The notes below the pieces were generated by a model that had not been told where the DNA came from, made no database searches, and was given only the letters and a program-made list of their open reading frames with translations. Both the position numbers and the translations under genes were made by a program. From the NCBI RefSeq assembly GCF_014695975.1, contig NZ_JACJPI010000074.1, positions 124,001-188,000 on the forward strand: a stretch of DNA of 64,000 nucleotides, written 5' to 3'. The stretch is from Leptolyngbya sp. FACHB-321 (lineage in GTDB: Bacteria; Cyanobacteriota; Cyanobacteriia; Leptolyngbyales; Leptolyngbyaceae). Shown here piece after piece: positions 22,886 through 56,384 of this stretch (position 1 is the first letter of the stretch; every line of letters begins with the position of its first letter).

Positions 22886-25800
22886 TTACTTCTCCGTCAC
22901 GACAAGGCTTGAGGAAGCTGATCGCCCGAATTCTTCTGGGGCGTATTGCAGATGTGCCTCAGCACCAGGATAGACGAACGTGCCGGGCGTCACGGAGCGC
23001 ACTAGATAATGCAGGGTGTACACGCCTGGATCAAGCTTATCACCAAAGGCAACCACGCGATCGTGGTAAATCGTTTGATAGGCAAGCTGCCAGCTATCAC
23101 CTTGTGACTGGAAGTAGGGTGTCGTTGTCTGGAAACTGTCATCCACCGCTTCAAAGCCTGCAGGTAGCGGATCAGTGACGACCACATGATCCACTGAATG
23201 ATCGGCAATGATCTCTAGCCCAATGTCGTAGACTTGCCCCACTGGAACAGTCAGTGGTTCTGGTGCATAAAGCCCGGTTTTGTATACCACTTTGTCTTCG
23301 TTGGCAGGACGAATAGTGCGGGTGATTCTTAACCCGTTAAGTTTACCGGGTTGGTTGCCCTGTAGACGATAGCGGTAGGCAACAAGGTAATGCAGAGTGC
23401 CCTGGCCCGTCTTAGTGAGGATCAGGTCATTGCGATCGCGCGGTAACGCAGCCATTTCTACTTTTTCGGTCGTGCTGGGAGTACGGTAGCCTGAAAATTT
23501 AGCAGTGGCGATCGGTTTACCCGCAAGTGCAGCGGTAGCTTCAAACGTGGGTGGTGTCGGTTGGAGTTGGCTATATGCCACCAGAGCCGTGAGCGCTTCG
23601 GCGTTATCGTGGGTGCTTTGCCAGGTGCCGTTACGCCGCTGAGATAGTAGCCCTTGCAGGAGTCGATCGGTGTCCTCAGCTTTAGCTTTTTGAGCGACAA
23701 AGAGCCGTAATGCCTGAGCCTGAGCCGTTGTAGGAGAGTTGAGCCAGCGCCAGTTAGACGGCAAGTTGACGGTGGCGTTACGTCCCGTTTGGTAAATCGT
23801 TTCCTGAAGCTGATTCACCATGGTGGTGGCTTCTTGCTGCCAGTCGGGAAACTGAGACAGATACCGCGCTAGCTTGATCTGGCTAACGGGGTCAAACTGG
23901 CTCCGCTGGCTGTAGAGGTCAGCAAGGAAGTCGTTGCGTCGATCGCCCAGGTCTGCAAGAGCAATCAACGTTTCCAGACGAACCTGATTTTTGCACAACG
24001 CTTGTTTGCAGAAATCGTACTGTCCGGGGTCGGCAAGAAGCTTCTTGAGATAGGCGGTGAGAGGGGAGAGGAGTGAGGGGGAAGGAGTGAGGGGAGAGGA
24101 GTCAGTTTTACTAAAGGCACGATCAGCAAGGGCGATCGCTTGGGCAGCGTGGGGAGTGATAAACGGATCAGAGGTCTCCTGTCCAGGGTAGGCGGCGAAA
24201 CCGCCATCGGGTTTTTGGAGGGTTTGCAGGCGATCGAGCGCTTGGGTTGCCTGCTGAGTGGGGTTAAAGCTGGCAAAGGTTTGCCCATAGGTTTGGGTAA
24301 GAGTTTGCAGGTTGGCGGCGATCGCGAGCTGACTGGCAGCAGGCTCCAAGAAGGGTAGGTTGGTTTCGTCTAGCACTTGCCTTGCGGGAGCAACCAGGGT
24401 GGGAATCAAACTGCTGGCAAGGGAAATGTCCAGTCCACCTGCATCAGGCGCTACATTTTTATCTACGTTCAGGGGAATGGTCGCGCGATCAGTCGTGGTG
24501 CCTGCTTCCACCACTTGTTCGGTTACGTCTAGCGGCTTCACGTCTAGCGGCAGTTCAAAGACATCGGTGGCGCTGCCAAGCTGAGTAGTGAATTTCACCA
24601 TTGCTTCGCCTGCTGACTGCACGACAACTGGAAAACGATACGCCTTCGTGCCAGCTTCCACCTGCGCTTGCTGCTGTCCTGAGTTATCTAGCTTGAGCGG
24701 CTCGGTAACGGTGCCATTTACTGACAGGTTACCGTTTTGTCCCGTGTTGTTGGTGACAGAAACGCCTGCCTGAAAGCGATCGCCCGGTCGAGCAAACTGT
24801 GGCAGCAAGGGATTTGCTAGCAGCGGTTTAGTCGTCACAAAGGTGGCATCGCCGTTGCCAAAATGCATATTCTCATCGGTAGCGACTGCCATCACGCGCC
24901 AGGTGGTCAGGTCATCCGGCAGCTTGAATTTGACTATAGCGTTGCCGATCGCATCTGTTTTCACCGAGCCGTTGTAGTATGCCAGCGCTTTGAAGTTGGT
25001 GCGAATTCGCGTATTGCCAGCGCCTGCCGACGAACCACCGCCATAGCCCCAGCCTTTTTGTAAGGGCGATGCCTGTGGTTGCAGCACTACGTCGGGTCGA
25101 TTGTCGCTCAAGCGGACTGAGACGGGTTGTTCCGCATAGACGGTCTTCACCAGATCAGGCGGACGGTAGCCGGTCAGTTGCAGAACGGCTTCATTCACGA
25201 CCATCAGTGTGACTTGCCCTTTCGCCGGTTGGTCTTGTGCAGAGACTCGTACCTGCACCGTTTGTTCGTCTCCCGGCTGCAATGAGGGCGCAACGGTAGC
25301 TTCTACCTTCAAATACTGAGGAGCAAGGCTCGTTTCAAAGGGTGCGAAGCCAATGCGAACGAGTTGATCCAGGCTACCAGGTTCCACCTGTTCTAACGGT
25401 TTGCCCTGACGCACCAGCACAGCTTCGATCGCTGCATTGGGCAGCATTTCGGGTGTCACCTGAAACTGCACTTTAGGCGCACCACCCTGTACTTTTGTCA
25501 GTGTTTTGTAAAGGGTGTTGTGGCGCACGACAGCAAAGTAAAGTTCACCATCGGCATAGGGCGACTGGATCAGCGCTGTAGCCGTTTCGCCGACTTGGTA
25601 CTGCTTTTTGTCAAGCTTGATTTCAAGTCGATTGTTGCGGTAGCGGTTGCCCCATGCAGCCGCATCCCCCGTTGCCCAAAGCTGTACTTCGGTAGCGCTG
25701 ACCACGTTACTGCCTGCAAACGTTGCCTGTAGGCGATAAGCACCAGCGGTAGTAGGCTTGAGGGTTGCACCTTTCGGACTGACATCAGACTGGATATCCG

Positions 25801-28702
25801 CAGTGGCGACGGTTTTGTACTCGACCTGATCTTGCTGAGTGCGGCTGCCTTCCACCAGTTTCGACACGCGGCTGTAGTTCATCTGCTGGAGTTCCAGATG
25901 CACTTTTTGATTCAACACTGGCGCACCTGCGGGGTCGGTAACGATGACTTTGACAGGGAAATCCTGCCCTGCGGTCGCTACAAAATCGCTTTGCAGCCCA
26001 ATGAATTTGTCTGTCGGTAATGCCAGAAAGGTCTTGGAGTCAGAAACCGAGAGGTTTGACACATCCGATACCTGGGCATCAACGCGATACGCCATCGGGT
26101 AGGGCAACTCTTTTTCAACCGTGACGGTCTGACTGCTATCCCCGTTTTGACTCAACACTTGATTGGTTTGCAGTACGTCGCTGGTGACGGTGGGCGCTTC
26201 TTCGGGCCAGAACCACTGCCGCCCAAAGGCAAAGCCATCCCAGCCCTTGGGTACGAACTCTGCTTGCTTGCGGGTGACATAGTAATTAACCTTGCCGCCC
26301 TCTACAGGCGAGCCAAAGAGGTAGTTGCTCTGGGTCTTGGCGGTGATGGTTTGACCAACGGTGGCGATCGCATCAAAGTTTTGAGTTTCGGCTGGTGAGT
26401 TTTGCGTTGCATTTGATGGCTCAACAGGTTTACTACCTTCTAACGTCAACGCCACTTTGAAGTTAGGTGGCTTAAATTCGGCAACGCGGAATTCGCCTGT
26501 AATTTCAACGCCACGATCGTTTTTGGCAAGAATCGCATAGTAACCAAGGGGCTGGTTTTTGGCGACTGTCCACTCCTTAGAAAACGTGCCGAATTCATTG
26601 GTCGTCTGAGTGCCCAGGCTGGTTTCCTGTCCGTTGGAGTCCCGCAGTGTGAGGGTATAGCGGGCGTTTTTGTCTTGCTTTAAAGCACCGTTTTGCAGGT
26701 AGTAGGCGGCTCCGGTAAACCAGGCAGTTTCACCCGGTTGATAGAGATTGCGATCGGAGAAAACTACACCCCGTGACTCAGGGGCGCTGCCCTGCCAGCC
26801 AGCATCAATCCCGTACCCATAGGCACCGCTATATTCCGTCGTGCGGGTAAACGCCCAGTCCTTGCCTTCTTGCGCCACAACTAGCAGGTTAGGTGCATTG
26901 GCAAAGCGTCCGGCTCCACCCATGCAGGTTTGTAAGGTTGAGCGATCGAGCAATAAGGTGCCGGTCTTGTCGGTTTTGCCAGTTGCACAGGCGCTTGGAG
27001 TGGGCTGGTCTTTCGCCTCCAGTTTCGATTGATAAACTTGCACAGCGGCATTTGCAACAGCCGATCCGTCTGAGAGATGGCTGACTCGCACCATGCCCGA
27101 TTCAGGGAACCATTGGGCAAATACGCCCAAATTGGTCAACTGCACCAAGCCATAGGTGGTCGGTTCGCGCCACTTTTGCTGTTTGCCGTCTTGATATTGA
27201 TTAGTGCGTGCCTGAACGCCATAGGCCAGCATCCCAGTAGTGCTGCCCAATTGTTGTTGCAGCGGTATAGTTGTGTCGATCGCCTGATTCTTTTGCCCCT
27301 TCAAGGACGCACGTTTCCACGCAGAGGGACTGGGCAACAGGCTGCCACCATTGGCGTTGGGGTAGGCAGAGTCGGTATAGACCAGATCCGTCGGCTGGAC
27401 GATCGCAAAGGCAGCTTTGTAACTGGGAAGATTAACCGTTGAGAGATTTAGTTGAAGATTCTTGCCTGTCGGGAAAATATTTAGCCCAGAGGGTGCCCAC
27501 AGGTCAGCCCCAACATCGCCAGTTTGGTAGTCTACCGTCATTGGCTTGCCGAGGGTTTGCCCAAATTTATCCTTTAGGTCAGCACCCAGTTTGATCGTGT
27601 ATTTGGTCGCTGGCTCCAGTGCCCAGGGATTAAGGTTGACCAGACGCTCGCCCTCGTAGACCCGCACTAGGGGCACATCTTTTTTCGGGGGCGGTTCAAC
27701 GGAAATGTTGGCGATCGCGGCTTCTGCATCTAGTTCGTTATTGAACTCCAACTGACCACTGCCATTGACAAAGCGTCCCGTTGTCCCGCCTGCATCGGGT
27801 TGCCCGTAGTAGTTTAGTTTCTGAAATGCTAGCGGTGCGTAGGTTTCCACCTGGCTAGCAAACATACTCTCGCTAGCCAGATTGCCTTTTGCTGCCGCTA
27901 ATCCTGGCGTGATTTCCAGACGATAACGAGTGGCTTTGGCAAGTGCTTGCTGGGGTTCCAGTGTATAAATCCAGTCGCGGGCGGAGGGATCAAATTGCGC
28001 ATCGGGTGTACTTTCGGGGTACTGCTCCTTTGACTGTTCTTCACTCTTCTCCAACGCCGCATTCATCGTTACGCCCTTGTTCGCCTTTGGCTCGTTGGCT
28101 GGAACCAACTTGACGCGCTCTTTCAGCGATGCCAGATTTAGCTCAACGTTGGAGGTAAATTTGAGGACAGGCTTGAGATCTAGTGGTCTTGCTGCCTCTG
28201 CCGCCTCTCCGGGAACAGACATCCCGGGCAAGTTAGATAATTTAATGGCTTCAGTATTGAATGTCCAGGCAAGATCCTGATCTAGTCGATGATTTTTTAG
28301 ATCTGCCAACCCAGCTTTAAGCTTGACTTGAACACGAGTCGCTTTTGGTATTGCCTGATCACCCTGGAAGCCAACCATGCGAGGGGTAAGAAAACGAAAC
28401 GTTCCCGGCAGCGGTGGCACAACCTCAAATTTCTTCAGCAGTTCCTGTGACCCGTTCTCCAGGTTTTCCAGTGGAATGATTGGTTCCTTAAAGCGAATGC
28501 GGATCTGTGCGGTTGTAGCAGCGTCTCCGAGCGGGCTAATCTGCTCAATCCAGTCTGGCAATTTAGGCACTGGTAAGGCGGCAACCAATGGCTGCGGGCT
28601 GGTATTGGAGGTGATGTTGGCGAAGCTACAGCCTTTGATGGTAAGGGCAACGCATAGAGCCAGCAAAACAAACCAGGGCTTAACGCCACTGCCACTTCTC
28701 AT
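22886..28702 (-). CDS. Bacterial alpha-2-macroglobulin family lipoprotein
   Basis: The 1938-residue product looks like a periplasmic protease-trapping macroglobulin (YfhM/YfaS group). The N-terminus is a lipoprotein signal ending in TIKGC, though Lys at -2 is unusual. Macroglobulin-type beta domains follow (FSDRNLYQPGETAWFTG is the MG1-like marker, then FRVAEFKPPNFKV). The centre contains MVVNEAVLQLTGYRPPDLV and LPDDLTTWRVMAVATDE. In the expected thioester position (about residue 1450) the sequence reads DETNLPFLEPAASQ: the CxEQ thioester is absent, so covalent trapping is not expected. ATG 28702 is chosen because GGAG sits 7 bases upstream. No PbpC gene is adjacent. Confidence 0.9.
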   Translation of the reverse strand: MRSGSGVKPWFVLLALCVALTIKGCSFANITSNTSPQPLVAALPVPKLPDWIEQISPLGDAATTAQIRIRFKEPIIPLENLENGSQELLKKFEVVPPLPGTFRFLTPRMVGFQGDQAIPKATRVQVKLKAGLADLKNHRLDQDLAWTFNTEAIKLSNLPGMSVPGEAAEAARPLDLKPVLKFTSNVELNLASLKERVKLVPANEPKANKGVTMNAALEKSEEQSKEQYPESTPDAQFDPSARDWIYTLEPQQALAKATRYRLEITPGLAAAKGNLASESMFASQVETYAPLAFQKLNYYGQPDAGGTTGRFVNGSGQLEFNNELDAEAAIANISVEPPPKKDVPLVRVYEGERLVNLNPWALEPATKYTIKLGADLKDKFGQTLGKPMTVDYQTGDVGADLWAPSGLNIFPTGKNLQLNLSTVNLPSYKAAFAIVQPTDLVYTDSAYPNANGGSLLPSPSAWKRASLKGQKNQAIDTTIPLQQQLGSTTGMLAYGVQARTNQYQDGKQQKWREPTTYGLVQLTNLGVFAQWFPESGMVRVSHLSDGSAVANAAVQVYQSKLEAKDQPTPSACATGKTDKTGTLLLDRSTLQTCMGGAGRFANAPNLLVVAQEGKDWAFTRTTEYSGAYGYGIDAGWQGSAPESRGVVFSDRNLYQPGETAWFTGAAYYLQNGALKQDKNARYTLTLRDSNGQETSLGTQTTNEFGTFSKEWTVAKNQPLGYYAILAKNDRGVEITGEFRVAEFKPPNFKVALTLEGSKPVEPSNATQNSPAETQNFDAIATVGQTITAKTQSNYLFGSPVEGGKVNYYVTRKQAEFVPKGWDGFAFGRQWFWPEEAPTVTSDVLQTNQVLSQNGDSSQTVTVEKELPYPMAYRVDAQVSDVSNLSVSDSKTFLALPTDKFIGLQSDFVATAGQDFPVKVIVTDPAGAPVLNQKVHLELQQMNYSRVSKLVEGSRTQQDQVEYKTVATADIQSDVSPKGATLKPTTAGAYRLQATFAGSNVVSATEVQLWATGDAAAWGNRYRNNRLEIKLDKKQYQVGETATALIQSPYADGELYFAVVRHNTLYKTLTKVQGGAPKVQFQVTPEMLPNAAIEAVLVRQGKPLEQVEPGSLDQLVRIGFAPFETSLAPQYLKVEATVAPSLQPGDEQTVQVRVSAQDQPAKGQVTLMVVNEAVLQLTGYRPPDLVKTVYAEQPVSVRLSDNRPDVVLQPQASPLQKGWGYGGGSSAGAGNTRIRTNFKALAYYNGSVKTDAIGNAIVKFKLPDDLTTWRVMAVATDENMHFGNGDATFVTTKPLLANPLLPQFARPGDRFQAGVSVTNNTGQNGNLSVNGTVTEPLKLDNSGQQQAQVEAGTKAYRFPVVVQSAGEAMVKFTTQLGSATDVFELPLDVKPLDVTEQVVEAGTTTDRATIPLNVDKNVAPDAGGLDISLASSLIPTLVAPARQVLDETNLPFLEPAASQLAIAANLQTLTQTYGQTFASFNPTQQATQALDRLQTLQKPDGGFAAYPGQETSDPFITPHAAQAIALADRAFSKTDSSPLTPSPSLLSPLTAYLKKLLADPGQYDFCKQALCKNQVRLETLIALADLGDRRNDFLADLYSQRSQFDPVSQIKLARYLSQFPDWQQEATTMVNQLQETIYQTGRNATVNLPSNWRWLNSPTTAQAQALRLFVAQKAKAEDTDRLLQGLLSQRRNGTWQSTHDNAEALTALVAYSQLQPTPPTFEATAALAGKPIATAKFSGYRTPSTTEKVEMAALPRDRNDLILTKTGQGTLHYLVAYRYRLQGNQPGKLNGLRITRTIRPANEDKVVYKTGLYAPEPLTVPVGQVYDIGLEIIADHSVDHVVVTDPLPAGFEAVDDSFQTTTPYFQSQGDSWQLAYQTIYHDRVVAFGDKLDPGVYTLHYLVRSVTPGTFVYPGAEAHLQYAPEEFGRSASSSLVVTEK
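24055..24112 (-). repeat. GAGGGGAGAGGAGTGAGG-type repeat in macroglobulin gene
   Basis: Iterated purine-rich strings on the plus strand give a Ser/Pro/Leu-rich insert (SSPLTPSPSLLSPLTAYL) in the helical thioester-type domain at about residue 1540. It is in frame and looks like another short-repeat invasion. Confidence 0.5.
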
Positions 28703-29003
28703 CACCATTCTCCCCGCTTCCCTACTCTATGAATGATCGCTGCTAACAAACAATTTGTTACCACAACCATTCCTACTCGCAAGGATAGGTCGATTCCGAT
28801 GTTGACTATAAATCTTTACGATTTGACAAGCTGGACGGTAGCAGGGACAGCAGTCAAAACGGTTGTTGGCTTGTCTTGTTTGAACACCAACCTACAGTTC
28901 ATCTAGCGTTACGAAAAGGCGAATCTCATCCTAGTTATTTATACTGATGAGTAGGGTGACTAGCTGATAGGACGTAACCAGCAATAAGTAGGAGTCACGT
29001 AAG
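28703..29003. other. Divergent intergenic region
   Basis: This spacer lies between the divergent macroglobulin and small secreted protein genes. It ends with an AGGAG ribosome site at about 28990 for the latter. I saw no hairpin or small gene. Confidence 0.4.
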
Positions 29004-40586: not shown

Positions 40587-43500
40587 TTAAGCATTACTGT
40601 TGGAGATGAGAACTTCACCTTTCAGCATCCGTTGGGCAGCATCCAGAAGTGCTTCTTCCAGGTAGGGTTTAGTGAAGTAACCACTGGCTCCAAGAGAGAC
40701 TGCCATCTGACGGTGACGATCGGCACCGCGAGAGGTCAGCATTGCGATCGGTAGGTGCGTAAGGTTGGGGTCTTTCTGGATACGGGAGAGCAGTTCCAGA
40801 CCATCCATGCGAGGCATCTCGATGTCGCAGAACACGATATCGCACGGTAGTCCAGCGCGGAGTTTCTCCCATGCTTCCTGACCGTCGCGTGCCTGCTCTA
40901 CCCGGTAGCCAACCTTGTTGAAGGTCATAGATAGCAGTTCGCGTACTGTGATGGAGTCGTCCACAATGAGTACGGTTGGCTCGGTCTTGGCGATCGGCGC
41001 TTCCTGAATCATGCTCACGCCGTCTTGTTCCCACAGCGAGCCGCCTACATCCTTGCGAATGCGACCCAGCGAGAGGTCAATCAGCTCCAATACGTCAGCG
41101 ATCGGCATGATCCGACCATCCCCTAACACGGTTGCCCCTGCAACACCAACAGGCTTAGGAATCGGTCCTTCTAGCTGCTTGATTACAATTTCCTGTTCGC
41201 CCAGTACTTGATCCACTTGAAGCGCCAGGAAGTTGCCAGCACTGCGTAGAACGACGATCGACACAATATCGTCTTCCTGGTTACCGCCATACACATTACC
41301 TCGACTGAGGTGACGGCTGTACGATAACAATTCACTCAGAGGACGCAGGGGCAACAATGAATCACGCCAGGGAATGCAGGCTTGTCCGTCGGCATTGGTT
41401 TGAATGCGTTCTTTCGGCACGTCGAGCATATCTTCTACCCCATCCATTGGGAAGGCGATACGGGCACGATCGCTAATACAGCACAGTGCTTTGGAAATAC
41501 TCAGCGTCAGCGGTAGCCGAATCGTGAATGTTGTACCTTTGCCATAAGTGGAGTCAGTGTTAATGGCACCACGAATTTCACTCAGGCTGGTACGAACCAC
41601 ATCCATGCCTACTCCCCGACCGGAGAAGTCATCAGCTTGATCCTTCGTGCTAAAGCCTGCATGGAAGAGTAAGTCGTAGACATCTAACCGTGCCATGTTT
41701 CTGGCTTCGGTTGCGGTAATCAGTCCTTTTTCGATTGCTTTCGCTTTAACGCGATCGATGTCGATTCCTGCACCGTCATCAGAGACCGAAATGATGGTCT
41801 GGTTCCCCTGGTGAAATGCACGAATGGTAATGCGTCCAGAAGGCGGTTTGCCGGCAGCACGGCGCACTTCAGGCGACTCAATGCCGTGGGTAATTGCGTT
41901 GTTCACCAGATGGGTCATTGGATCATAAAGCTGTTCCAAAATCATCTTGTCGATCAACGTTTCACGCCCTTCGACGTTCAGTTCTGCCTGCTTACCAACT
42001 TTCATCGCAATGTCACGTACGGCACGCGGCAGCCGATCGGCAGTTTGAGCAAAGGGCACCATGCGCGATCGGGTTAGCCCTTCCTGCAACTGAGTGGTTA
42101 CCTGACGGAACATCCGCGTCACCTGATCCGTTTCATCCACAATGAACTCAATGTCAGACGACGACTCACGCACTCGCACAATCAGCTCAATCATTTCTTG
42201 TGAGAGGCTGTGGAAACCCGTAAAGCGATCCATTTCTAAGGGATCGTATTCAATCCCAGTTGCATTAGCCGTTTGAGCAAAGACTCCACTCTCACGCGCT
42301 GACGCTGATGCCCCAAAGGCGCTGCGGTGGCTCTGGCGGCTAGCAAGAAGCGAACTTTCAAGGAGCGATCGTTCATACAAATCTTGCATCCGTTGCCCCA
42401 CATCGCTAAGTTGCTGCACCTGATACAGCAAGTTATCGAGCGACTGACGAAGACGTTCCTGGTCTTCCTCCAGGCTGTTACGGTTTACCACCAGTTCCCC
42501 AACAAGGTTACTGAGATTATCCAAATGCTTGACTGGTACCCGCATGGTCTGCTCACTAAAGACTCGACCGGGGCGGGTAGGGCGGCGATTCTGAGCCGCT
42601 ACGCCACTACGGGCAATCTTTACCGTTGGCGAGCCGCCCATCTTTTCTTCAGCATCTTTCAGCAGGTCGTCCAGCTCATCAAACTCAGAGATGCGAGTGA
42701 CGGTTGTATCACCTCGTTGATTGCCAGTATCGGACACTTCAAACGAATCATCTTGTAACAGGGATTCGAGTTCAGCAAAGTCATCTACTGATGACGCAGA
42801 TTCCCCTGCGCTTGATGTATTCCCCAATCCTGATAAGCCAGCAGAGAAATCTGAACTAGAGTCATCTGCTAAGAAAGCGTCTAACTCCGTTAAAGCATCG
42901 GCTGAAGAGTCTTGATCAAGAAACGTCTCTAAGCTTGAAAACTCATCTTCTGCGGCATTATCTGATGCTAATAGGCTGTCCAGGTCATTAAACGCATCAG
43001 TTTCTTCGCCGAGTAGATTATCAAAAGCTGACAGTTCTCCAACACCTGCTGGTTGGCTTTCATTAATAAGTAGGTCATCAAACTCGTCAAGGGCATTCGT
43101 TGAGGCAGGCGCGCTTGATTCATCCATCAAGCGATCGAATTCGGTAATGCTATCGCTGGTGCTGTTATCGTCGCTCGTGCCTTCCCAATCAAAATCGAAT
43201 GCAGCGGCTTCTGGCGTTGCTGCCTCTGGTGGTGCGGCTTCAAAGAGTGAGTCTGTTGCAGCAGTGTTATCAGCAGGCAAGGCATCAAAATCAAGTGCAT
43301 CGAAACCAGAATTCTCCAAGTCGAGTGCAAAGTCTTCACTCTCAGCATTTTCTGTGGCAGTGCTGTCGCTCGTGCCTTCCCAATCAAAATCGAATGCAGT
43401 AGCTTCCGGTGCTGCCTCTAAGGGTGCAGTGTCAAAGAGTGAGTCTGTAGCAGCAGCGTTATCAGCAGGCAAGGCATCGAAATCAAGTGCGTCGACATTA

Positions 43501-46500
43501 GAATTCTCTAAGTCGAGTGCAAAGTCTCCACTCCCAGCATTTTCTGCGGCAGTGCTGTCGCTGGTGCCTTCCCAATCAAAATCGAATGCTGCCGCCTCGG
43601 GTAGTGTGGCTTCAAAGAGTGAGTCTGTTGCAGCAGCATTATCAGCAGGCAAGGCATCGAAATCAAGTGCATCGAAACCAGAATTCTCTAAGTCGAGTGC
43701 AAAGTCTTCACTCTCAGCATTTTCTGTGGCAGTGCTGTCGCTGGTGCCTTCCCAATCAAAATCGAATGCAGTAGCTTCCGGTGCTGCTGCCTCTAAGGGT
43801 GCAGTGTCAAAGAGTGAGTCTGTTGCAGCAGCGTTATCAGCAGGCAAGGCATCAAAATCAAGTGCATCGAAACCAGAATTCTCGAAATCGAGTGCAAAGT
43901 CTTCACTCTCAGTGCTTTCTGTAACAGTGCTGTCGCTGGCGATATTTTCGTCGCTGGTGCCTTCCCAATCAAAATCGAATGCAGTAGCTTCCGGTGCTGC
44001 TGCCTCTAAGGGTGCAGTGTCAAAGAGTGAGCCTGTAGCAGCGTTATCAGCAGGCAAAGCATCGAAATCGAGTGCAAAGTCTTCACTCTGAGTGCTTTCT
44101 GCGGCAGTGTTGTCTAGAGCCGTGCTATCGCTCGTGCCTTCCCAATCAAAATCAAATGCATTGGCTTCTGGTGTTGCTGCCTCTGGTGGTGCGGCTTCAA
44201 AGAGTGAGTCCGTAGCAGCAGCGTTATCAGCAGGCAAGGCATCAAAATCGAGTACGTCGACATTAGAATTCTCGAAGTCGAGTGCAAAGTCTTCACTCCC
44301 AGCGTTTTCTGTGGCAGTGCTATCGCTGGTGTCTTCCCAATCAAAATCAAATGCAGCGGCTTCTGACGGTGCTGCGTCTGACGGTGCTGTCTCTGGTGGT
44401 GCGGCTTCAAAGAGTGAGTCTGTTGCAGCAGCGTTATCAGCAGGCAAGGTATCAAAATCAAGTGCATCGAAACCAGAATTCTCGAAATCGAGTGCAAAGT
44501 TTTCACTCTCAGCATTTTCTGTAGCAAGACCGTTAGTGCCGTTTTGATCGCTGAGATCAAATGACAACGCATCGCCAAAGTTTAAGCTCTCCGTAGCTGG
44601 CGAAGTAGGGGAGAGGTTAATGTCAACGTTTTCAGGAGCATTAGAGGCAAATAAATCATCACCAAAGCTTAGACTGGCTTCAGCCGTTGAGTCTTGAGAA
44701 GGAACAGTATTGTCTAGAGCATCGCTCTCAAACAAGTCGAAGTTTAGGCTCCCATCATCAAAACTGGCTTCACTAGCATTCGTAGCAGGTTCAGTAACGT
44801 CTTCACCAAACGCCGCGATCGCATCAAGCTCGGTGCTAGTAGCGTCAGTGTCAGTTGATGCAAACAGGTCAAAATCCATAGCATCATGATCAGGCTCTGG
44901 TTGTTGACCCGCACCATTAGTCAGCACAGGCTCATCTAACTCAAACAGATCATCGTTTAGAGCAAGATTCTCATCTAAGGGCGCGATCGGCTCCAGACCA
45001 TTCAGATTATTCAAATCATCCAGATCATCTAGACCATTCAAATCAGTAAGACCAAGTAATTCGTCGCTGAGTGTGTCAGCTGTCTCACTAGATTGCGGTT
45101 CCGATGAGACGCCGATGGTCAGCAGATCGTCTGGCAGATCGAAGCTCTCATCCGATTGATTTGGCTGGTCAAAGAAATCACCCAAGGCATCCGTTGGTTC
45201 CAGTGGCTGCGTTACTGAAAGGTCATCTAGCGAGATAGATTGCGGTTCTGATGAGGCATCAAAAGCAAAGGCAGTAATATCAGGCCCGTCTAAAGAGCGA
45301 TCGAGCAAGGACTCACTGAGCAAGTCGGCTGAATCGGCGATCGTGTCTGGTGCTTCACCAAACGGATCTCCAAGGGCTTCTACTGGGTCAGTTGGCTGCT
45401 CTGAAGGCTCCGAAACCAGCCAGGAGTCTGATGTATCCAACAGATTTGTATTCAGAGCGCTATCTGTGCCAAAGCTACCAAAATCAATGTCCAGCCCGGT
45501 CTCTAAGTCAGCCGCTTCTGAAGTGCTGCTGCCAGCAGTGCCAAAGTCAGACTCGTTGAAGTCAAATTCGTCGAAGGCAAGGCTCCCTGCATCCGTTGCT
45601 AAGTCATCTGCTATTGGTAGTTCAACCGTTTCAGCATCTAACTCTGAAGCATCTAGATTAAAAGCATCTGAAGTATTAGGAGCTTCCTGAGCCGAAGGCA
45701 CTGCCCATGGGTCAGAAAAATCGGTCTCGAATGCTGTATCGGCTTGCGGTGTCGGTGCTTCCCCAGAGGGTAAGGACCAATCTAAAGATTCAAGATCAGC
45801 ATCGGCTGAAAGAGTTTCGGGTAATGTCTCATCAACTGGCGGTATGTCATCAGTGAGCCAAGACGCGATCGATGGCTCAAGCCCGTCATCCGTCAGTTCT
45901 TCTAGTGCTAAATCTTCTACCAGCTCAAGTTGAGGGTCGCTCGGCGGCTGTTCAGCCGTTGAACTCAGCAGACTGCTAAAGTCCAGATCATCCTGTTCAG
46001 ACAATCCCTCAAGTGATTCCAGCATAAAGCCGTCATCGCTCAACTGATTACCGAAGTCCTCTGTGTCAGTTGGGCTTGTGGCAAGATCTTCGTCACCGAG
46101 TGGTAGCACAGGCTGCTCGTCAAACGATAAAGCTGGATCAGCAACAGCCGCGTCAGGTTCGCCCCAGGGATCAACGATCGTGGTTTCAAGCAGGGTTGGA
46201 ACTGGGGGGAGCTCAAACATTTGCTCATCCAGTTCCGTGGTGAAGGGGTCATCCACATCGTCCAGATTCAGCTCTACAGGCTGAAGCTCTGAATTAGTTT
46301 GGAACTCTGAGAAGGTAAGGTCTGGCTCGGCATCCATGCCAGTAAAGAGTCCACCTAAATCCTCCAGGTGGGGAGCGGACTCAGGTGCATCATCAAACGT
46401 AAGTCCGGCAAGGTCTGATTCAACAGCATCCGGTGAACCCATCTCAGAGTCTAGGTTCAAGTCGCCAAAAATATTGTCAAAGGCAGTGCTGCTCTGCTCT

Positions 46501-48071
46501 GCTGGTGTATCCGTTACGCCCAATTCACCCCAATCTTCGGCACTTGAGTCAGCCAACAAATCGTCTAGATCAGCTTGAGCTTCGCTGGTAGTATCAAAGA
46601 GACTGCTGGCTTGATCTGTAGACGTGTCCGTTAGCGCTGAAACACTCAAGTCTGTAGAGTCCAAGCCCGTAAACAGAGCGTCCAAATCAGCTTGGGCATC
46701 GCTACTGGTGGGAAGGGCGCGATCGTCAATCAATTCGCTTGGTAGCGCGTCTGGTTGCAGCAGATCATCGCTGAACAAGTCGGTGAGCGCATCCTGAGAG
46801 GAGGTCGAAGCCTCTTCCTGACCAATTTCTGACTCATCAAATAGGAGATCAGAAAAGTCGGCAGCCGTATCAATATCGGTCGTATCATTAGCGCTGACGA
46901 CCCGCACATCTGCAGGAAGAGCAATGACCTCTTCCTCTTGCCAGGTTGAACCGAGGTCGGGCATCTCGCCTTCAAACAGGTCTGCCAGGCTATTGAGTTC
47001 TGCCATGCCTACTTCGGGACCATTTTGGTCAGCGTGATCGGCTTCAGCAGGTACTGTGCCGAAACTGTCATTCAGGTCAAAGCTATCGCCAAAATCGATT
47101 TCAGGCGCAGCGTCATCCATTTCAGCAAACAAAGCATCGTCAGCCGTTGCAGTGGATGGCTCTGTGAGCCAATCAGCATCATCTGTAGCCGCTAGCAGAT
47201 CAGCAAAGTCGTCAATCGCAGGTTCAACAGTTGGTGCCGATGGCTGTAGCGCTTGCAGTTGAGCGCACGGCACAATTTCGGACGCACGCCCCGAGAGAAC
47301 TAGTTCTTGTGCCTGCTTAATGTCTTTGATGACAATTGGAGCCAGCATTCGATAGGCATTATCACGATGAGCAATCGCGGCTCTTGACAGCTCGATCAAG
47401 GCACACCAATCAGGCAGGTCAAACTGCTCACCAATGCTGATCAAGTGACGACAGAGATCCTGCAGCTGTTGGCGGTTGGCATCATCCAACTCCGACTGTT
47501 TAAACAGTTGCAGCATCTCGCGCAGACGCAGAGGAATGTCGTTTTGGAACAGTAAAACGAACGCACTATCCTGTTGGGCGGAAGAAACAGCAGGACTGCT
47601 GACGGCGATCGGGCGACTAGCAGCGGTAGCCGCAGTTGCTGGAGCAGCATTACTTGCCAGCACATTCAAATGTGTTTCTAGCGCGTTAAAGACTGGCTCA
47701 ACGCCAGCTACAGTCGCTTTAGCCGTTTCATCAGTTAATCCAAACGGTCCTTGGAGCTGTCCAACCAACTCTTGCAAGGCATCAAAGACTTGCAAAAACA
47801 AACCTTCGAGCTTTTGATCGACCTTGACAGGGGACTCTTTAAGAATCTTGAAGTAGTCTTCGAGCCGATGGGATACTTGCTGGATGCTGCTTAAGCCCAG
47901 CATTGCTGCACCACCCTTAACAGAGTGTGCCGCCCGAAACAGTTCGTTGACCATTTCCTGGTCTTCGATGGTGCTTTGCAGATTGAGCACACCTTGCTCG
48001 ATCGTATTGAGGTGGTCTTTTGCCTCCTCAATGAAGTAGCCCATGATTCGCTGTTGCTGTTCAGGCTGCAT
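40587..48071 (-). CDS. Giant CheA-type hybrid histidine kinase (PilL/HmpE-like)
   Basis: The 2494-residue kinase is the last gene of the chemotaxis operon. Domains: Hpt at 1-105 (AAHSVKGGAAMLGL, phospho-His about 49); a second helical segment to about 285; roughly 1500 residues of acidic Asp/Ala/Ser/Leu-rich sequence with seven tandem repeats; dimerisation domain from about 1840 (VPVKHLDNLSNLVGELVVNR); HATPase (HLVNNAITHGIE, DDGAGID, GRGVGMDVV) from about 2045; CheW-like 2195-2335; receiver 2365-2480 (DDS, FCDIEMPRMDG, TSR, KPY). All catalytic motifs are intact. It should phosphorylate its own receiver and the PilG/PilH-like proteins to control type IV pili. Confidence 0.93.
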   Translation of the reverse strand: MQPEQQQRIMGYFIEEAKDHLNTIEQGVLNLQSTIEDQEMVNELFRAAHSVKGGAAMLGLSSIQQVSHRLEDYFKILKESPVKVDQKLEGLFLQVFDALQELVGQLQGPFGLTDETAKATVAGVEPVFNALETHLNVLASNAAPATAATAASRPIAVSSPAVSSAQQDSAFVLLFQNDIPLRLREMLQLFKQSELDDANRQQLQDLCRHLISIGEQFDLPDWCALIELSRAAIAHRDNAYRMLAPIVIKDIKQAQELVLSGRASEIVPCAQLQALQPSAPTVEPAIDDFADLLAATDDADWLTEPSTATADDALFAEMDDAAPEIDFGDSFDLNDSFGTVPAEADHADQNGPEVGMAELNSLADLFEGEMPDLGSTWQEEEVIALPADVRVVSANDTTDIDTAADFSDLLFDESEIGQEEASTSSQDALTDLFSDDLLQPDALPSELIDDRALPTSSDAQADLDALFTGLDSTDLSVSALTDTSTDQASSLFDTTSEAQADLDDLLADSSAEDWGELGVTDTPAEQSSTAFDNIFGDLNLDSEMGSPDAVESDLAGLTFDDAPESAPHLEDLGGLFTGMDAEPDLTFSEFQTNSELQPVELNLDDVDDPFTTELDEQMFELPPVPTLLETTIVDPWGEPDAAVADPALSFDEQPVLPLGDEDLATSPTDTEDFGNQLSDDGFMLESLEGLSEQDDLDFSSLLSSTAEQPPSDPQLELVEDLALEELTDDGLEPSIASWLTDDIPPVDETLPETLSADADLESLDWSLPSGEAPTPQADTAFETDFSDPWAVPSAQEAPNTSDAFNLDASELDAETVELPIADDLATDAGSLAFDEFDFNESDFGTAGSSTSEAADLETGLDIDFGSFGTDSALNTNLLDTSDSWLVSEPSEQPTDPVEALGDPFGEAPDTIADSADLLSESLLDRSLDGPDITAFAFDASSEPQSISLDDLSVTQPLEPTDALGDFFDQPNQSDESFDLPDDLLTIGVSSEPQSSETADTLSDELLGLTDLNGLDDLDDLNNLNGLEPIAPLDENLALNDDLFELDEPVLTNGAGQQPEPDHDAMDFDLFASTDTDATSTELDAIAAFGEDVTEPATNASEASFDDGSLNFDLFESDALDNTVPSQDSTAEASLSFGDDLFASNAPENVDINLSPTSPATESLNFGDALSFDLSDQNGTNGLATENAESENFALDFENSGFDALDFDTLPADNAAATDSLFEAAPPETAPSDAAPSEAAAFDFDWEDTSDSTATENAGSEDFALDFENSNVDVLDFDALPADNAAATDSLFEAAPPEAATPEANAFDFDWEGTSDSTALDNTAAESTQSEDFALDFDALPADNAATGSLFDTAPLEAAAPEATAFDFDWEGTSDENIASDSTVTESTESEDFALDFENSGFDALDFDALPADNAAATDSLFDTAPLEAAAPEATAFDFDWEGTSDSTATENAESEDFALDLENSGFDALDFDALPADNAAATDSLFEATLPEAAAFDFDWEGTSDSTAAENAGSGDFALDLENSNVDALDFDALPADNAAATDSLFDTAPLEAAPEATAFDFDWEGTSDSTATENAESEDFALDLENSGFDALDFDALPADNTAATDSLFEAAPPEAATPEAAAFDFDWEGTSDDNSTSDSITEFDRLMDESSAPASTNALDEFDDLLINESQPAGVGELSAFDNLLGEETDAFNDLDSLLASDNAAEDEFSSLETFLDQDSSADALTELDAFLADDSSSDFSAGLSGLGNTSSAGESASSVDDFAELESLLQDDSFEVSDTGNQRGDTTVTRISEFDELDDLLKDAEEKMGGSPTVKIARSGVAAQNRRPTRPGRVFSEQTMRVPVKHLDNLSNLVGELVVNRNSLEEDQERLRQSLDNLLYQVQQLSDVGQRMQDLYERSLLESSLLASRQSHRSAFGASASARESGVFAQTANATGIEYDPLEMDRFTGFHSLSQEMIELIVRVRESSSDIEFIVDETDQVTRMFRQVTTQLQEGLTRSRMVPFAQTADRLPRAVRDIAMKVGKQAELNVEGRETLIDKMILEQLYDPMTHLVNNAITHGIESPEVRRAAGKPPSGRITIRAFHQGNQTIISVSDDGAGIDIDRVKAKAIEKGLITATEARNMARLDVYDLLFHAGFSTKDQADDFSGRGVGMDVVRTSLSEIRGAINTDSTYGKGTTFTIRLPLTLSISKALCCISDRARIAFPMDGVEDMLDVPKERIQTNADGQACIPWRDSLLPLRPLSELLSYSRHLSRGNVYGGNQEDDIVSIVVLRSAGNFLALQVDQVLGEQEIVIKQLEGPIPKPVGVAGATVLGDGRIMPIADVLELIDLSLGRIRKDVGGSLWEQDGVSMIQEAPIAKTEPTVLIVDDSITVRELLSMTFNKVGYRVEQARDGQEAWEKLRAGLPCDIVFCDIEMPRMDGLELLSRIQKDPNLTHLPIAMLTSRGADRHRQMAVSLGASGYFTKPYLEEALLDAAQRMLKGEVLISNSNA
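43162..44545 (-). repeat. Seven tandem coding repeats of 177-213 bp in the CheA gene
   Basis: The marker CTTCCCAATC on the plus strand recurs at 43181, 43376, 43568, 43748, 43961, 44138 and 44333, giving unit lengths of 195, 192, 180, 213, 177 and 195 bases, all multiples of three. Each unit encodes a block running from ENAESEDFALDLENSGFDAL through DFDALPADNAAATDSLF to AFDFDWEGTSDST. One copy lacks the ENSGFDALDF part. Confidence 0.95.
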
Positions 48072-48334: not shown

Positions 48335-51226
48335 CTATTTGCGCTCGATCGTTTCAACGCGGAACCGTTCTACAGATGTAAGTAGATCGCGGGCAACACC
48401 CACCAGGTTTTGCAGCGAACCAGACACTCTTTGCGCCTCCTGAGAGGTTTCCTGAGCGGTCAACTCAACCGATTGCATGACCTGAGCGACCGCGCGTGAG
48501 GTCTCAGTTTGCTCAACAGTGTCTGCTGTAATCGAACGCACTAGTACGTCGATTCGATTAGAAACCTGAATGATATCTTCGAGCGATCGCTTTGCCTGTT
48601 CTGCTAATCGAGTGCCTTCAATAACCTGCTGCGTCCCTTCCTCCATCGCGGTCATTACAGAGCCTGTTTCACCCTGAATTTGCAATACGATTTGTTCGAT
48701 TTCTTTCGAGGCTTTGGCGGCACGGTCAGCTAACTGTCGCACCTCGTCAGCAACGATCGCGAACCCACGACCCGCTTCGCCTGCCCGTGCTGCTTCAATA
48801 CTGGCGTTAAGTGCCAGCAAGTTGGTACGAGAGGCAATTTGCGAAATCAAAGCGACGATCTTAGAAATCTCTTGCGATGATTCTGCAAGGCGTTTCACCT
48901 TGCGCGTGGTTTCTGCCACCGTTTCGCGGATTTCGAGGATACCTGCCACAGTCCGTTCTACTGCTTCCCCACCCTTAAGCGCGGTTGCCGATGCCGATCG
49001 TGCGACTTCCTCCGCTTCCCGGGCGCTTTCTGCCACCCGTTGAATCGAGTCGGTCATCACCTGCACCGAGTTCAACGTGACTGCAAGCTCTTCTGCCTGT
49101 CGGAGTGCATCAGACGACAAACTACGGGCAAACATTTCATTGTCGGTCGAGCCTTTACTAACCTGCCGCGCTGCTACTTTCACCTGTTGCACAATTTCTC
49201 GCAGGTTTTGGATCGTCAGGTTGAACGAGTCAGCAACGGCACCCAGCACGTCTGCCGTTACCTCTGCCTGCACCGTCAAGTCACCACGAGCTGCGCCTTC
49301 CACATCGTCTAGCAGTCGAATCACCTGACGCTGCAAATCTTCCTTCGCTTGCTCTTGCTCTTCTGCCTTGCGTTGCGCTTCACTGGTAGTGGTAAGAATG
49401 ACCCGTGCCATCTGGTTGAAGCCCGATGAGAGATGACCAAATTCATCTTCGGTATAAACCGTAGCACGAGCATTCAAGTTGCCCTGACAAACCGAATTAA
49501 ATTGCGCTTGCAAATCATCCGTCGATTGCTTGATTTTCTTGGCAGTAAATTGCCCTACAGCAAAGGCTGCCATCCCACCCGACAAACCGCCCACTAAAGC
49601 CATCGCCCAGCCAGTGCCCTGAAGTCGCGAAATGACCGCACTGGAGAGTTCCTTTTCTCGAGGTGTGGCATTCTCACCCGTGCCAGGTAAGGTGCTAGTA
49701 GAGATAAGATTCACCACAGCCACAGCCACTGCTGAAAAGATCCCCGCTGTGACCGCAGTGTAGAACTGCTTACGTTCAATAGGCGCATTCTCTAAAAACG
49801 CTAGTGCCCCTTGTTCAACGCTAGGACTAGGTTCAACTCCTTGCTGGTCAGACTGGGTAAATGTTGGTACTTGCTCAGACGTACTGGAGATGCTGAAGAC
49901 TTCATCATCGGAGATGGTAGAACGGGTGCCGTTACTGCCAAAGCCCATGGAGTCAAAGTCACCAGCAGTACTACTACTTGCTAAAGCACCGCTTCCTGGT
50001 AAATCAAAACTAGCATTGACAGAGGGGCTTGTAAAGCCAGCAGAATTTTCTGAAAGATCAAAATCGGCGAGATTGCCAAGATCATCAAATTCGTCAAACT
50101 CATCTAGAAAGTCGGCGCTGGTTTGCCTGCTGCTACCAGAATCTGCATTAGCACGGTCACTGTAGAGGGAGTCTGCTGGCTCTTGTGTAAAGCCGCTGGC
50201 TGCCCCAAACTGATCACTCTCATACACCCCCGTACTACCCATAAACAGGGTCTCATCTTCGGTGATGCGGTGATTGCTGCTGTTACGAGCTGTATCTAAA
50301 GGGGGCGTGGAGTGATCGTTTTCAATCGTGTAGGATGGCTGATCGATCGGTGATGCGCCTGGCAGATCCAGTGGTGCAAACGCATCATCAAACTCGTCTA
50401 AAGCGGCAGCAAACTGGTCATTGTTGGGAGTGGATAGTGTGCCGTAGCTCGACGTACTAAAGTCCGACGTGCCGTAATCAGGCGTACTGAAATCGGGTAC
50501 ATCGAAGTCGATCGCACCAGGTGTACTATTAGTGTCAAAGTTCAGCGGTTCTGCTGGCAGCTGCGAGAATGCGTCATCTTGCGGATGATCCAGTGCTGCA
50601 TCAACCGAGAATGGATCAGAGAGAGAATCAAAACTGTCTAAGGCACTGGCTTCCTGTAACTGCGTACCATTATCAAATGGGCTAGCGAACGGCTCGTTTG
50701 CTAACGACGCAAAATCCTGCCCGTATGTGTCTGATGCAGAGTTAAAGCTGGAGTCGAAGTTTGAGTCAAAATTGGGGTCAAAGCTAAGGTCATCAGCACC
50801 GAACGCATTGTCAAACTCATTACTTAAATCCAGATTGTTGAAGCTCAGGTTATCATCCTGGTCCCAATCCGTAGACGGAATAGCTGGTTCGGATGACGCA
50901 TAGACATCAGACGCGATCGCTCCACCAAAATTATCTTCACCCGCATCGCCTGCCTGGCTATCAATGTAAGCTAGACCATCGTTAGCGTAGTTGATAAACT
51001 CCTGATCGGTTGTCAGCCCCAGCACTGATTGGTATTGGTCTCTAGCGATCGCGAACTGCTGTAGCCCGTAGCAATAGACATGACCACGTAGCAACGATGC
51101 GCTGGGATCTTCAGGAAATTCTTTAATAAGGCGATCAACGATTTCCGCCGCCTCCTCATAGTTGCCCTGCACATATGCCTTTTGCGCTTGCTGATATTCT
51201 TGTGCGTATTCAGTGCCAGTTGCCAT
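48335..51226 (-). CDS. Methyl-accepting chemotaxis protein (PilJ/HmpD-like)
   Basis: A 963-residue receptor. The N-terminus is a TPR-like helical repeat ([35 protein letters not shown]). Residues about 115-480 are acidic, Asp/Phe/Asn/Ser-rich and probably disordered. Two membrane spans follow (about 512-534 and 562-585), then HAMP-type segments and the signalling hairpin with the conserved tip [32 protein letters not shown] split over about 815-850. No GAF or other sensory domain is present, unlike PixJ, so this is the Pil/Hmp type. ATG 51226 has a strong GGGAGGAGG ribosome site. Confidence 0.93.
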
Positions 51227-51381
51227 TTGCCTCCTCCCAGTTGCGTATTGAGTGCTGTAGCTTAGGCATAGCGGAGGTTCTGCGACGTACGGCTTGGCTC
51301 TGACCGACACCGCACTCAATCCGCGTGACTTGTTTCTCAGTTTTACCGCTAGTTCGTGTTTTTTTCACGTCAATTTCTCTC

Positions 51382-51912
51382 CTAGGCTGCCCATCGAGCA
51401 GATCGCAGAATGGCAATCTGATCTAATAGTCGGAGAAACTTATTTGCTTGTGCATCTAAAACCCACTCACCACGTAGAAACGGAGCAACGCTATCGGGCA
51501 CATTGGTAGACATCTGCACCTCCTCAATATCCAGCCAGTCCATACCAACGATGCGATCGACCGCTAAACCTAGCATAATGTCTTGGTCTTCAACAGCAAT
51601 AACTTGAACTTCTGGTTTATCTGTATTCAATGGCGTTGGATCGCCCAAGAATTGACCAAGATCGGCAACCCAAACGACACGTCCGCGTACATTAAGAGTA
51701 CCCAAAAGCAGTGGTGAAACATTCGGCACGGGCGTAATCCGATCGGGTGATGGCGACAATACCTCTCGAATCCCCATCGCTGGTAGCGCAAATTCACTGC
51801 CGGATGTGATGTAAAACCGCAAGTGCAGCTCACCTTCAGGACTTTCCAACTCCTGAAATTCGGGTGCCTGATCTTGCCCCCTGCCCGTTAAAAAATCTGG
51901 ATTGCCGACCAT
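51382..51912 (-). CDS. CheW-like adaptor (PilI/HmpC-like)
   Basis: A 176-residue CheW-domain protein that should couple the receptor to the CheA kinase. The domain runs from LHLRFYITSGSEFALPAMGIRE through LGTLNVRGRVVWVADLGQFLG to VDRIVGMDWLDIEE. It starts 9 bases after the PilH-like stop and is followed by the receptor gene, so it is plainly part of one transcript. Confidence 0.93.
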   Translation of the reverse strand: MVGNPDFLTGRGQDQAPEFQELESPEGELHLRFYITSGSEFALPAMGIREVLSPSPDRITPVPNVSPLLLGTLNVRGRVVWVADLGQFLGDPTPLNTDKPEVQVIAVEDQDIMLGLAVDRIVGMDWLDIEEVQMSTNVPDSVAPFLRGEWVLDAQANKFLRLLDQIAILRSARWAA

Positions 51913-51921
51913 TGCTTTTGC

Positions 51922-52287
51922 TTAACCCCGCAACAATTGCTTGACTGTTCCCACTAATTCGGTCGGCTGAAAAGGTTTGGCAATATAAGCATCAGCGCCC
52001 TGTTTCATGCCCCAGTAGCGATCGAACTCTTCCCCTTTGGATGAACACATGACAACGGGCACATCTTGAGTCTTAGGATCGGCTTTGAGGCGACGGCAGA
52101 CTTCATAACCATTCATGCGCGGCATGACAATATCTAGCACCACTAGATCAGGTCGATGTCCTTGAATTTTCTCTAATGCCTCAACGCCGTCACCAGCTAC
52201 CGTCACACTTAAACCACTCCCCTTTAAGAGATCGGTAATCATCTCTCGTTGAGTCACACTATCTTCCACGACCAGAACTGTACTCAT
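51922..52287 (-). CDS. CheY-like response regulator (PilH/HmpB-like)
   Basis: A 121-residue single receiver domain: VLVVEDSVTQRE (acidic pair), LVVLDIVMPRMNGYE (phospho-acceptor Asp about 52), VVMCSSKGEE and AKPFQ (conserved Lys). It carries no output domain. In this operon type it is the second CheY, thought to act as phosphate sink or motor regulator alongside the PatA/PilG-like protein. Confidence 0.93.
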   Translation of the reverse strand: MSTVLVVEDSVTQREMITDLLKGSGLSVTVAGDGVEALEKIQGHRPDLVVLDIVMPRMNGYEVCRRLKADPKTQDVPVVMCSSKGEEFDRYWGMKQGADAYIAKPFQPTELVGTVKQLLRG

Positions 52288-54626: not shown

Positions 54627-56384
54627 GTGCTGTATCTTGCAGAAGTACAAAAAAAGAGCGGTGGCTTGCTGGGTGGCGGCAAGGCAGAGTTGAAGCTGCT
54701 TGCTTGCCAGCGGTCTGAACAAAGCTGGAGTGCAGTAACTAGTGAAGAAGTCGTTGGTTGCGATGAGGCAAACAACTACAACGGTGGCGCTCTAGTACTG
54801 GTTGACCTTACAGCCAATAAGCAAGTGCAGCGTGTCCAGGAAGCCGGACGGCAACTGGTTAGCATTCTCCAGAACTTTTCGCGACTGCAAGAAAAGTTTA
54901 AGACACAAGAAGAAGAGATTGAACAATGGAAGCAGTCTCTGACGTATCAGAGTCAGGAACTCAATCGTCGGGAAATGGAGATGGAAACCCGACGTGAGCA
55001 ACTCCAGCAGATGGAGGACGACTTTGAACAGCTAGAGCAGCAGCGTCAGGAGTTTGAAACCCTACGTGATGAAGTGAACCAGCAGCGCGATGAATTTGAG
55101 CGCAACCGTCAGGAGTTAGAAGGAGCTTGGAATCATCTGCGTGGCGAGATGAGTCGTCTAGAAGAGCGGCAGGCAGAGTTTCAGCAGACTGCCTTTCTCG
55201 ACGATGAGCAGGCACGCATTATTCAAGACTTGCTGAATCGGTTGGCAGGTGCAGTACCCTCTACAGATGTGGTACGAGACCAACTGAATGCTTCGGTAGA
55301 AATTTTGGTGCAGCAGCAAAACACGCTCAATCAGCAGTGGCAGAATTTGGAGCAACAGCGATCCACCGCGCAGCAGTTGCAAGACGAAGCCGATCGCCAA
55401 ACTCAAGACATTCACCAGCGCTGGCACGAGTGGAACCAGGCGCAAGAGTCGCTAGAACAAGGGCGGGCAGAACTGAAGGTACAACAAACGTCGCTCAACG
55501 TGCGGCAAGAGTATGCCCGGATGCTAGGTATACAAATCCAAAACCAAGAGGATCTACATCAGCAGCTTTACGGCTTGGCAGACAGCTCTGATAAGGTCAA
55601 GATTGGGCAAAAAGTGGATGTTGAAGCCCTTGAGAAGCTGCCGATCGACGAACTGCAAAAGGTCGTCAGCGATCTAGAGCGCGATTTGCAGAAGCTCTCT
55701 CAGTTTGTGGAAAGCCAAGAAGAGGAACTGCGTTACAAGCAGCAGGAAATTAACGACCTACAAGCAAAGATCCAGGCAGCCAATGAGTATGATCGTCTTA
55801 ACTTGGAAAACGAACTGGCAGATGAGCAAGACGGCTACCAGATGCTCAACGAAACTCTGGTTGGTCAGCGCCGTAACCTGCGAGAACGCGATGGTCTGTT
55901 GAGCCAGCACCGCACTGTGCTGTTACGTCGTCAGGGCAATACTGATTCAGCGATACAAGAAAACGATATCGATCTGGGACCCATTCTGAGCCAAATTGAA
56001 GCCCAACGGCAGCAGCAAGTCGAAGAACTGCAAAAGCTGGAGAGCCAAATCGAACAAATGCGCGGCGCGATCGATCAGGCACAGGGCATGGTCAATACAC
56101 AAGCAACGGAACAAGAAAACAAGCGCAACGAACTCAAACAGTTAGAACAAGCCCTGCTCGATCGCCGTTCTGCCGCCGCTGAAACCTGGGGGCGCGTGAA
56201 CCTCTATCAGGAAATGCTTCAGCCGATTCAGGATAATGTAGACAGTTTGCGGCAACGGCTTGACGGTATTTCAGGCACAATCACTCAGTTTCAGGAAACA
56301 GGAGAACATCAAGGGCAGGCGATCGCCGAAATGCGCCAAATCCTCGCCAACCTTACCAGCACGCCAGAACTCGCTGCATCTTAA
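54627..56384 (+). CDS. hmpF: Pilus motility taxis protein HmpF
   Basis: A 585-residue coiled-coil protein matching HmpF of filamentous cyanobacteria. HmpF accumulates dynamically at the leading pole and is needed for type IV pilus gliding. The globular N-terminus (MLYLAEVQKKSGGLLGGGKA, LLACQRSEQSWSAV, NYNGGALVLVDL) is the family signature. Residues about 80-560 are nearly continuous Gln/Glu-rich coiled coil, broken near 195-215 by QARIIQDLLNRLAGAVPSTD. The GTG start has AGAGGA about 10 bases upstream. Its position opposite the pilG-L operon supports a common motility role. Confidence 0.92.
   Translation: MLYLAEVQKKSGGLLGGGKAELKLLACQRSEQSWSAVTSEEVVGCDEANNYNGGALVLVDLTANKQVQRVQEAGRQLVSILQNFSRLQEKFKTQEEEIEQWKQSLTYQSQELNRREMEMETRREQLQQMEDDFEQLEQQRQEFETLRDEVNQQRDEFERNRQELEGAWNHLRGEMSRLEERQAEFQQTAFLDDEQARIIQDLLNRLAGAVPSTDVVRDQLNASVEILVQQQNTLNQQWQNLEQQRSTAQQLQDEADRQTQDIHQRWHEWNQAQESLEQGRAELKVQQTSLNVRQEYARMLGIQIQNQEDLHQQLYGLADSSDKVKIGQKVDVEALEKLPIDELQKVVSDLERDLQKLSQFVESQEEELRYKQQEINDLQAKIQAANEYDRLNLENELADEQDGYQMLNETLVGQRRNLRERDGLLSQHRTVLLRRQGNTDSAIQENDIDLGPILSQIEAQRQQQVEELQKLESQIEQMRGAIDQAQGMVNTQATEQENKRNELKQLEQALLDRRSAAAETWGRVNLYQEMLQPIQDNVDSLRQRLDGISGTITQFQETGEHQGQAIAEMRQILANLTSTPELAAS

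Follow-up and report, generated by a model that had tools for sequence, protein, structure and literature searches.

Among the chemotaxis-like systems of cyanobacteria, hmp is described as the one conserved most widely (PMC9239167). Nostoc punctiforme carries hmpA-hmpE under the consecutive tags Npun_F5960-F5964 and hmpF on the other strand as Npun_R5959 (PMC10581220). The cheA homologue of the Synechocystis tax3/pilG cluster consists of two separate genes (PMC7656254), and in E. coli and Salmonella CheA long disordered linkers attach the P1 domain to the core (PMC10653900). The subject of the present analysis is an array of seven tandem repeat units inside a 2494-residue CheA-type kinase of Leptolyngbya sp. 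FACHB-321. The kinase is encoded in a window of 64,000 nucleotides (the whole stretch of DNA analysed, positions 124,001 to 188,000 of contig NZ_JACJPI010000074.1; coordinates are those of the window). The gene is hmpE of an hmpA-E/hmpF locus in a cyanobacterium of the genus Stenomitos, and its gene order, hmpA-B-C-D-E with a divergent hmpF, matches the reference order inferred from the Nostoc locus tags (PMC10581220).

HmpE of Nostoc punctiforme and Leptolyngbya boryana resembles that of the array species in gene set and in being a CheA-type kinase. These kinases were compared by description only, and the portions of the accounts at hand describe no linker array, whereas seven units are present here. 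Synechocystis PilL-N and PilL-C (Hik36 and Hik43, tax3) are likened to HmpE by domain parts and not by orthology: both systems combine an Hpt part with a CheA core, and the tax3 system is a pilus-related chemotaxis-like one. Since PilL-N and PilL-C are encoded by two genes, they have no covalent spacer, unlike HmpE. E. coli and Salmonella CheA share the P1-linker-core arrangement with HmpE, but the HmpE linker is about 1500 residues long, strongly acidic and repeat-prone, and no Pfam match to a P2 domain was obtained between its P1 and P3. Pseudomonas aeruginosa ChpA likewise belongs to a pilus chemotaxis-like system and is a CheA of very large size. Its size comes from many phosphotransfer domains, whereas that of HmpE comes from a low-complexity linker.

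We favor the view, with a probability of about 0.6, that the array arose by tandem amplification in this species, within a composition-selected flexible spacer of HmpE. One ancestral segment gave rise to seven copies within the long acidic linker, which connects the Hpt domain and a second, HPt-like bundle with the P3-P4-P5-REC core. This linker most likely serves as a soluble, self-repelling flexible spacer, which would let the Hpt shuttle between kinase domains in the signalling array and the receivers HmpA, HmpB and REC. Selection would hold the composition (acidic, poor in K and R, with hydrophobic residues at regular spacing) and the reading frame, but not the sequence or exact length, and in-frame duplications by recombination would therefore be tolerated and recurrent. 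The observations below show the amplification, the kept frame, the composition, the recurrence and, for the modelled parts, predicted disorder; from them we infer the spacer role and the near-neutrality of copy number. The parts of the kinase are as follows.

40587-48071, minus strand: HmpE-type CheA, 2494 amino acids (aa) (open reading frame, Pfam)
47646-48071, minus strand: Hpt (P1) domain, residues 1-142, with the phospho-His H49 (PF01627, fold match, column counts)
47286-47582, minus strand: second helical bundle, residues 164-262, of HPt-like shape (model, fold comparison, column counts)
42672-47234, minus strand: acidic linker, residues 280-1800, net charge -393 (composition; disorder modelled to residue 400 and from 1561)
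40590-42554, minus strand: P3, HATPase, CheW-like and REC core, residues 1840-2494 (Pfam, conservation in 44 orthologues)

The kinase frame starts with ATG and has the domains of an HmpE-type kinase: an Hpt with a phosphorylatable His (residues 9-101, PF01627, E 5.6e-17), the P3 dimerisation domain (1840-1897, PF02895), HATPase (2052-2189, PF02518), a CheW-like P5 (2196-2332, PF01584) and a C-terminal REC (2367-2479, PF00072). H49, the phospho-His, is invariant in 44 of 44 orthologues, across which the P3-HATPase-CheW-like-REC core is also conserved. The predicted Hpt fold matches Salmonella CheA P1 (1i5n) with a Z score of 17.2 and a root-mean-square deviation of 2.2.

Tandem Repeats Finder (TRF) returned a single array at 43170-44526 (7.0 copies, score 1095). 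When cut after each TSD, it covers 43170-44528 (residues 1182-1634) and comprises seven units, all in frame.

44322-44528, minus strand: repeat unit U1, 69 aa, 207 nucleotides (nt) (unit cuts)
44127-44321, minus strand: repeat unit U2, 65 aa, 195 nt (unit cuts)
43950-44126, minus strand: repeat unit U3, 59 aa, 177 nt (unit cuts)
43737-43949, minus strand: repeat unit U4, 71 aa, 213 nt (unit cuts)
43557-43736, minus strand: repeat unit U5, 60 aa, 180 nt (unit cuts)
43365-43556, minus strand: repeat unit U6, 64 aa, 192 nt (unit cuts)
43170-43364, minus strand: repeat unit U7, 65 aa, 195 nt (unit cuts)

An earlier sequence-only reading of this DNA had described seven tandem in-frame units of 177-213 nt in a 2494-aa CheA, with the frame preserved and the array lying between the Hpt and the catalytic core. 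All of this was confirmed, the last by the Pfam positions of Hpt (9-101) and P3 (1840-1897), and the coordinates agree to within 20 nt. The same reading had called the units near-identical, a wording slightly strong for pairwise values of 81-93% at the nt level, with pooled synonymous (pS) and non-synonymous (pN) divergence of 0.254 and 0.079. The genome is a draft of 91 contigs and the copy number is known here from the assembly alone, so the true number might differ from seven. We regard such an artefact as very improbable, since the units diverge by 7-19% and the longest exact repeat inside the array is 82 nt. Every exact repeat can thus be spanned by ordinary short reads and the copies carry distinguishing differences, which makes a collapsed or inflated array unlikely. 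Moreover, orthologues on single large contigs (e.g. L067, L077) have similar arrays. Two plus-strand frames over the array (43147-44091 and 44092-44547) are antisense frames without independent support and were treated as incidental; they are probably a by-product of the repetitive codon content.

The origin of the array was examined by comparison with six genomes of the same genus, that of Stenomitos frigidus ULC18 and S. rutilans HA7619-LM2. In five of the six congeners, the array position aligns to one segment (e.g. FESSDFDALGFD...ADFDWETSS in G002). In the sixth, a metagenome-assembled genome from Centralia (L043), the DFDW block lies elsewhere in the alignment and there is no clear correspondence to the array. 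A search with one unit plus its flank found 40-51% identity in four congeners and no match in the other two, and the repeat unit has no further copies elsewhere in the genome of the array species. The kinase cores of the congeners differ from that of the array species by a pS of 0.51-0.63, about twice the value between units, which places the amplification after the species split. By this measure the array is younger than the split but not brand new, and gene conversion among units could mask a greater age. The expansion by recombination that had been called recent is thus lineage-specific, but recent only in a relative sense, with a pS about half the genus-level value. Some non-adjacent units are similar to each other (U3-U6, 93.1%; U1-U7, 92.7% nt identity) and TRF also reports a period of 372 nt; together these suggest multi-unit recombination or conversion within the array.

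The comparison of synonymous and non-synonymous change between units, which had been proposed with the sequence-only reading, gave a pN/pS of about 0.31. Judged by this ratio, the units are still under purifying selection. The constraint is weaker than on the kinase core, where pN against the congeners is 0.013-0.029. When the unit is divided into blocks of ten codons, pN is lowest in DFDALPADNA and WEGTSD (~0.02) and highest at the N-terminal end (~0.21), although the blocks are short and the values noisy.

To place the array in a wider context, 73 distinct orthologues were compared, a few of which end early at the C terminus because of a contig edge. The homologue in G010, considered as a possible split gene, was left out since it is interrupted across frames and a sequencing error could not be distinguished from a pseudogene. 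The stretch from Hpt to P3, which includes the second bundle, ranges from 818 to 1873 aa (median 1110), with 21-32% D+E and 1.5-5.3% K+R. Tandem DNA arrays are present in 41 of these 73 linkers. All 59 arrays have periods divisible by three, as is demanded of any coding sequence. Those with a TRF score of at least 150 fall into 35 sequence clusters, which means that most units are unrelated between orthologues. Array density per 100 kb is 22.7 in the linkers, 6.3 in the acidic-aromatic segment of the methyl-accepting chemotaxis protein (MCP), 0 in the folded parts of CheA and 2.5 in flanking DNA; the linker value is about nine times that of the flanks. The most striking array is that of Symplocastrum torsivum HmpE (L107), with 17.8 copies (TRF) of an unrelated 37-aa acidic unit. 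At the other extreme, one kinase (G048) has an acidic stretch of about 267 residues ahead of P3, and another (G045) is 928 aa long, which after subtraction of the ~655-aa core leaves almost no linker. Across the class, the linker thus ranges from almost none to 1873 aa. Sequence and length vary freely in this comparison and composition does not, and on these data the seven-unit array exemplifies an expansion of the HmpE linker that recurs across the family. No earlier description of this trend was found in a literature search that was small and mostly without subscription papers, and the same search returned nothing relevant on repeat-bearing or condensate-forming CheA linkers. The recurrent expansion is of greater interest than the seven-unit array alone. 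HmpE linkers form a natural series in which to study the control of phosphotransfer by the length and composition of a flexible tether.

The linker itself is strongly biased in charge, with a net charge of -393 over 1521 aa, and the Hpt-to-P3 stretch contains 24.7% D+E and 1.5% K+R. The predicted local distance difference test (pLDDT) score is below 50 for residues 1561-1766, U7 included, in the C-terminal model and for much of residues 308-347 in the N-terminal model. The charge and the 1561-1766 prediction support the earlier proposal of an open, acidic linker. Several points weigh against a linker that is selected for composition only. The pN/pS of ~0.31 and the minima in the DFDALPADNA and WEGTSD blocks mean that drift of the unit sequence is restricted, and the unit may have a sequence-specific role; conversion among the units could likewise depress pN and pS. 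Hydrophobic spacing in the linkers is non-random. The models cover the residues up to 400 and from 1561 on, and the disorder of U1-U6 is deduced from composition and from U7. Functional studies of the HmpE linker were not found in the literature searched.

The sequence-specific role proposed at the outset was docking, in which the FDFDWEGTSD block of each unit would be a short binding site and seven copies would offer CheY-like proteins or HmpF more such sites locally. HmpF and CheY-like receivers are indeed encoded next to hmpE. The neighbouring genes of the locus are:

48335-51319, minus strand: HmpD-type MCP with an acidic-aromatic segment (Pfam; orthologue composition)
51382-51912, minus strand: HmpC-type CheW (Pfam)
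51922-52287, minus strand: HmpB-type CheY-like receiver, 121 aa
52396-53712, minus strand: HmpA-type DUF4388-REC protein (Pfam)
54627-56384, plus strand: HmpF, divergent (NF038350, 763 bits)

WEGTSD is among the blocks of lowest pN, and a DFDW block occurs once in each of the six congeners. However, D[FL]DW is found in only 15 of the 73 orthologue linkers, mostly once, the arrays of other species are built mostly from unrelated units, the modelled copy U7 is disordered, and the conserved words of the linker sit outside the array. The block therefore does not behave as a conserved docking motif, and we consider docking by the array unlikely. Electrostatic docking of the linker to the operon partners was also rejected: all of them are net negative, so that charge gives them no cause to bind an acidic chain. 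A putative copy of FDFDWEGTSD in the C-terminal tail of HmpA (LEIDWTDAD) was rejected as well, since none of the 22 recovered orthologue tails has an IDW or FDW block.

Two conserved elements outside the array are better docking candidates.

46938-47024, minus strand: conserved linker motif GPEVGMAELNSLADLFEGEMPDLGSTWQE, about residues 350-378, near the Hpt (orthologue word and column counts)
42642-42779, minus strand: last two conserved F-x-x-L-x-x-L-L helices before P3, within residues 1765-1810, by the core (word counts, columns, model)

The SLADLFE word of the first, GPEVGxAELNSLADLFEGE...W, is present in 56 of the 73 orthologues, and the SLADLFEGE motif has no other copies in the genome. 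Words of the second type occur in all 73 linkers, with a mean of 5.04 per linker, whereas shuffled sequences give 0.28. In the last two words the F and L columns are invariant or nearly so, and short helices are predicted for them at about 1766-1773 and 1796-1810.

It had also been proposed that the length of the tether changes how the Hpt reaches the kinase domain. With unfolded-chain scaling (radius of gyration 0.1927 N^0.598 nm), the end-to-end distance comes to about 38 nm with seven units and about 31 nm with one, and the effective Hpt concentration to about 10 and 18 micromolar, respectively. Strong charge would extend the chain beyond this estimate. An effect on reach is thus plausible but modest: the array would change the Hpt-kinase encounter within one molecule at most about two-fold. 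Exchange of Hpt domains between neighbouring kinases is plausible. Seven in-frame copies have been retained and the estimates do differ, as would be expected if array length were adaptively tuned in this species for Hpt access to kinase domains and receivers. We nevertheless hold such tuning to be improbable, because the estimated effect is less than two-fold, orthologues have linkers of anything from almost none to 1873 aa, and the Synechocystis tax3 kinase is split in two genes (PMC7656254).

A further possibility is a multivalent assembly of the HmpE linker with the acidic-aromatic segment of HmpD, which would concentrate the motility signalling proteins and to which the repeats would add contacts. 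HmpD orthologues too have an acidic, F/W/Y-rich segment, and FDxLD-type words exceed shuffles in both proteins (8.5-fold in the MCP, 3.7-fold in CheA). On the other hand, both chains are acidic and should repel each other, the CheA word F-x-x-L-x-x-L-L is absent from the MCP segment, and such behaviour is not reported in the literature searched. We doubt this explanation. Its fuller form, in which matched HmpE and HmpD chains assemble a signalling hub by weak contacts and tandem expansion of HmpE is recurrent tuning, likewise seems a long shot. As regards HmpD itself, the segment contains ~16-27% D+E and 7-13% F/W/Y among orthologues, and a recurrent word was noted in about 30 of them.

The N-terminal model of HmpE contains two well-predicted bundles, the Hpt and residues ~164-262. 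The second resembles HPt-like folds (AHP1, Z 10.6; YojN, Z 10.1; range Z ~9-10.6), values that may reflect just a common arrangement of helical bundles. It has no conserved His, and the orthologues have S, A, H or Q at column 209. The bundle might serve in docking or be an HPt that has degenerated. A paralogue of the N-terminal module of HmpE was also observed as a stand-alone protein of 351 aa that lacks the acidic linker (L002 and L185, G000:C41), and many relatives have similar frames of 300-400 aa. Elsewhere in the window, 22886-28708 on the minus strand encodes a 1940-aa protein of the bacterial alpha-2-macroglobulin type with a Big_5 domain.

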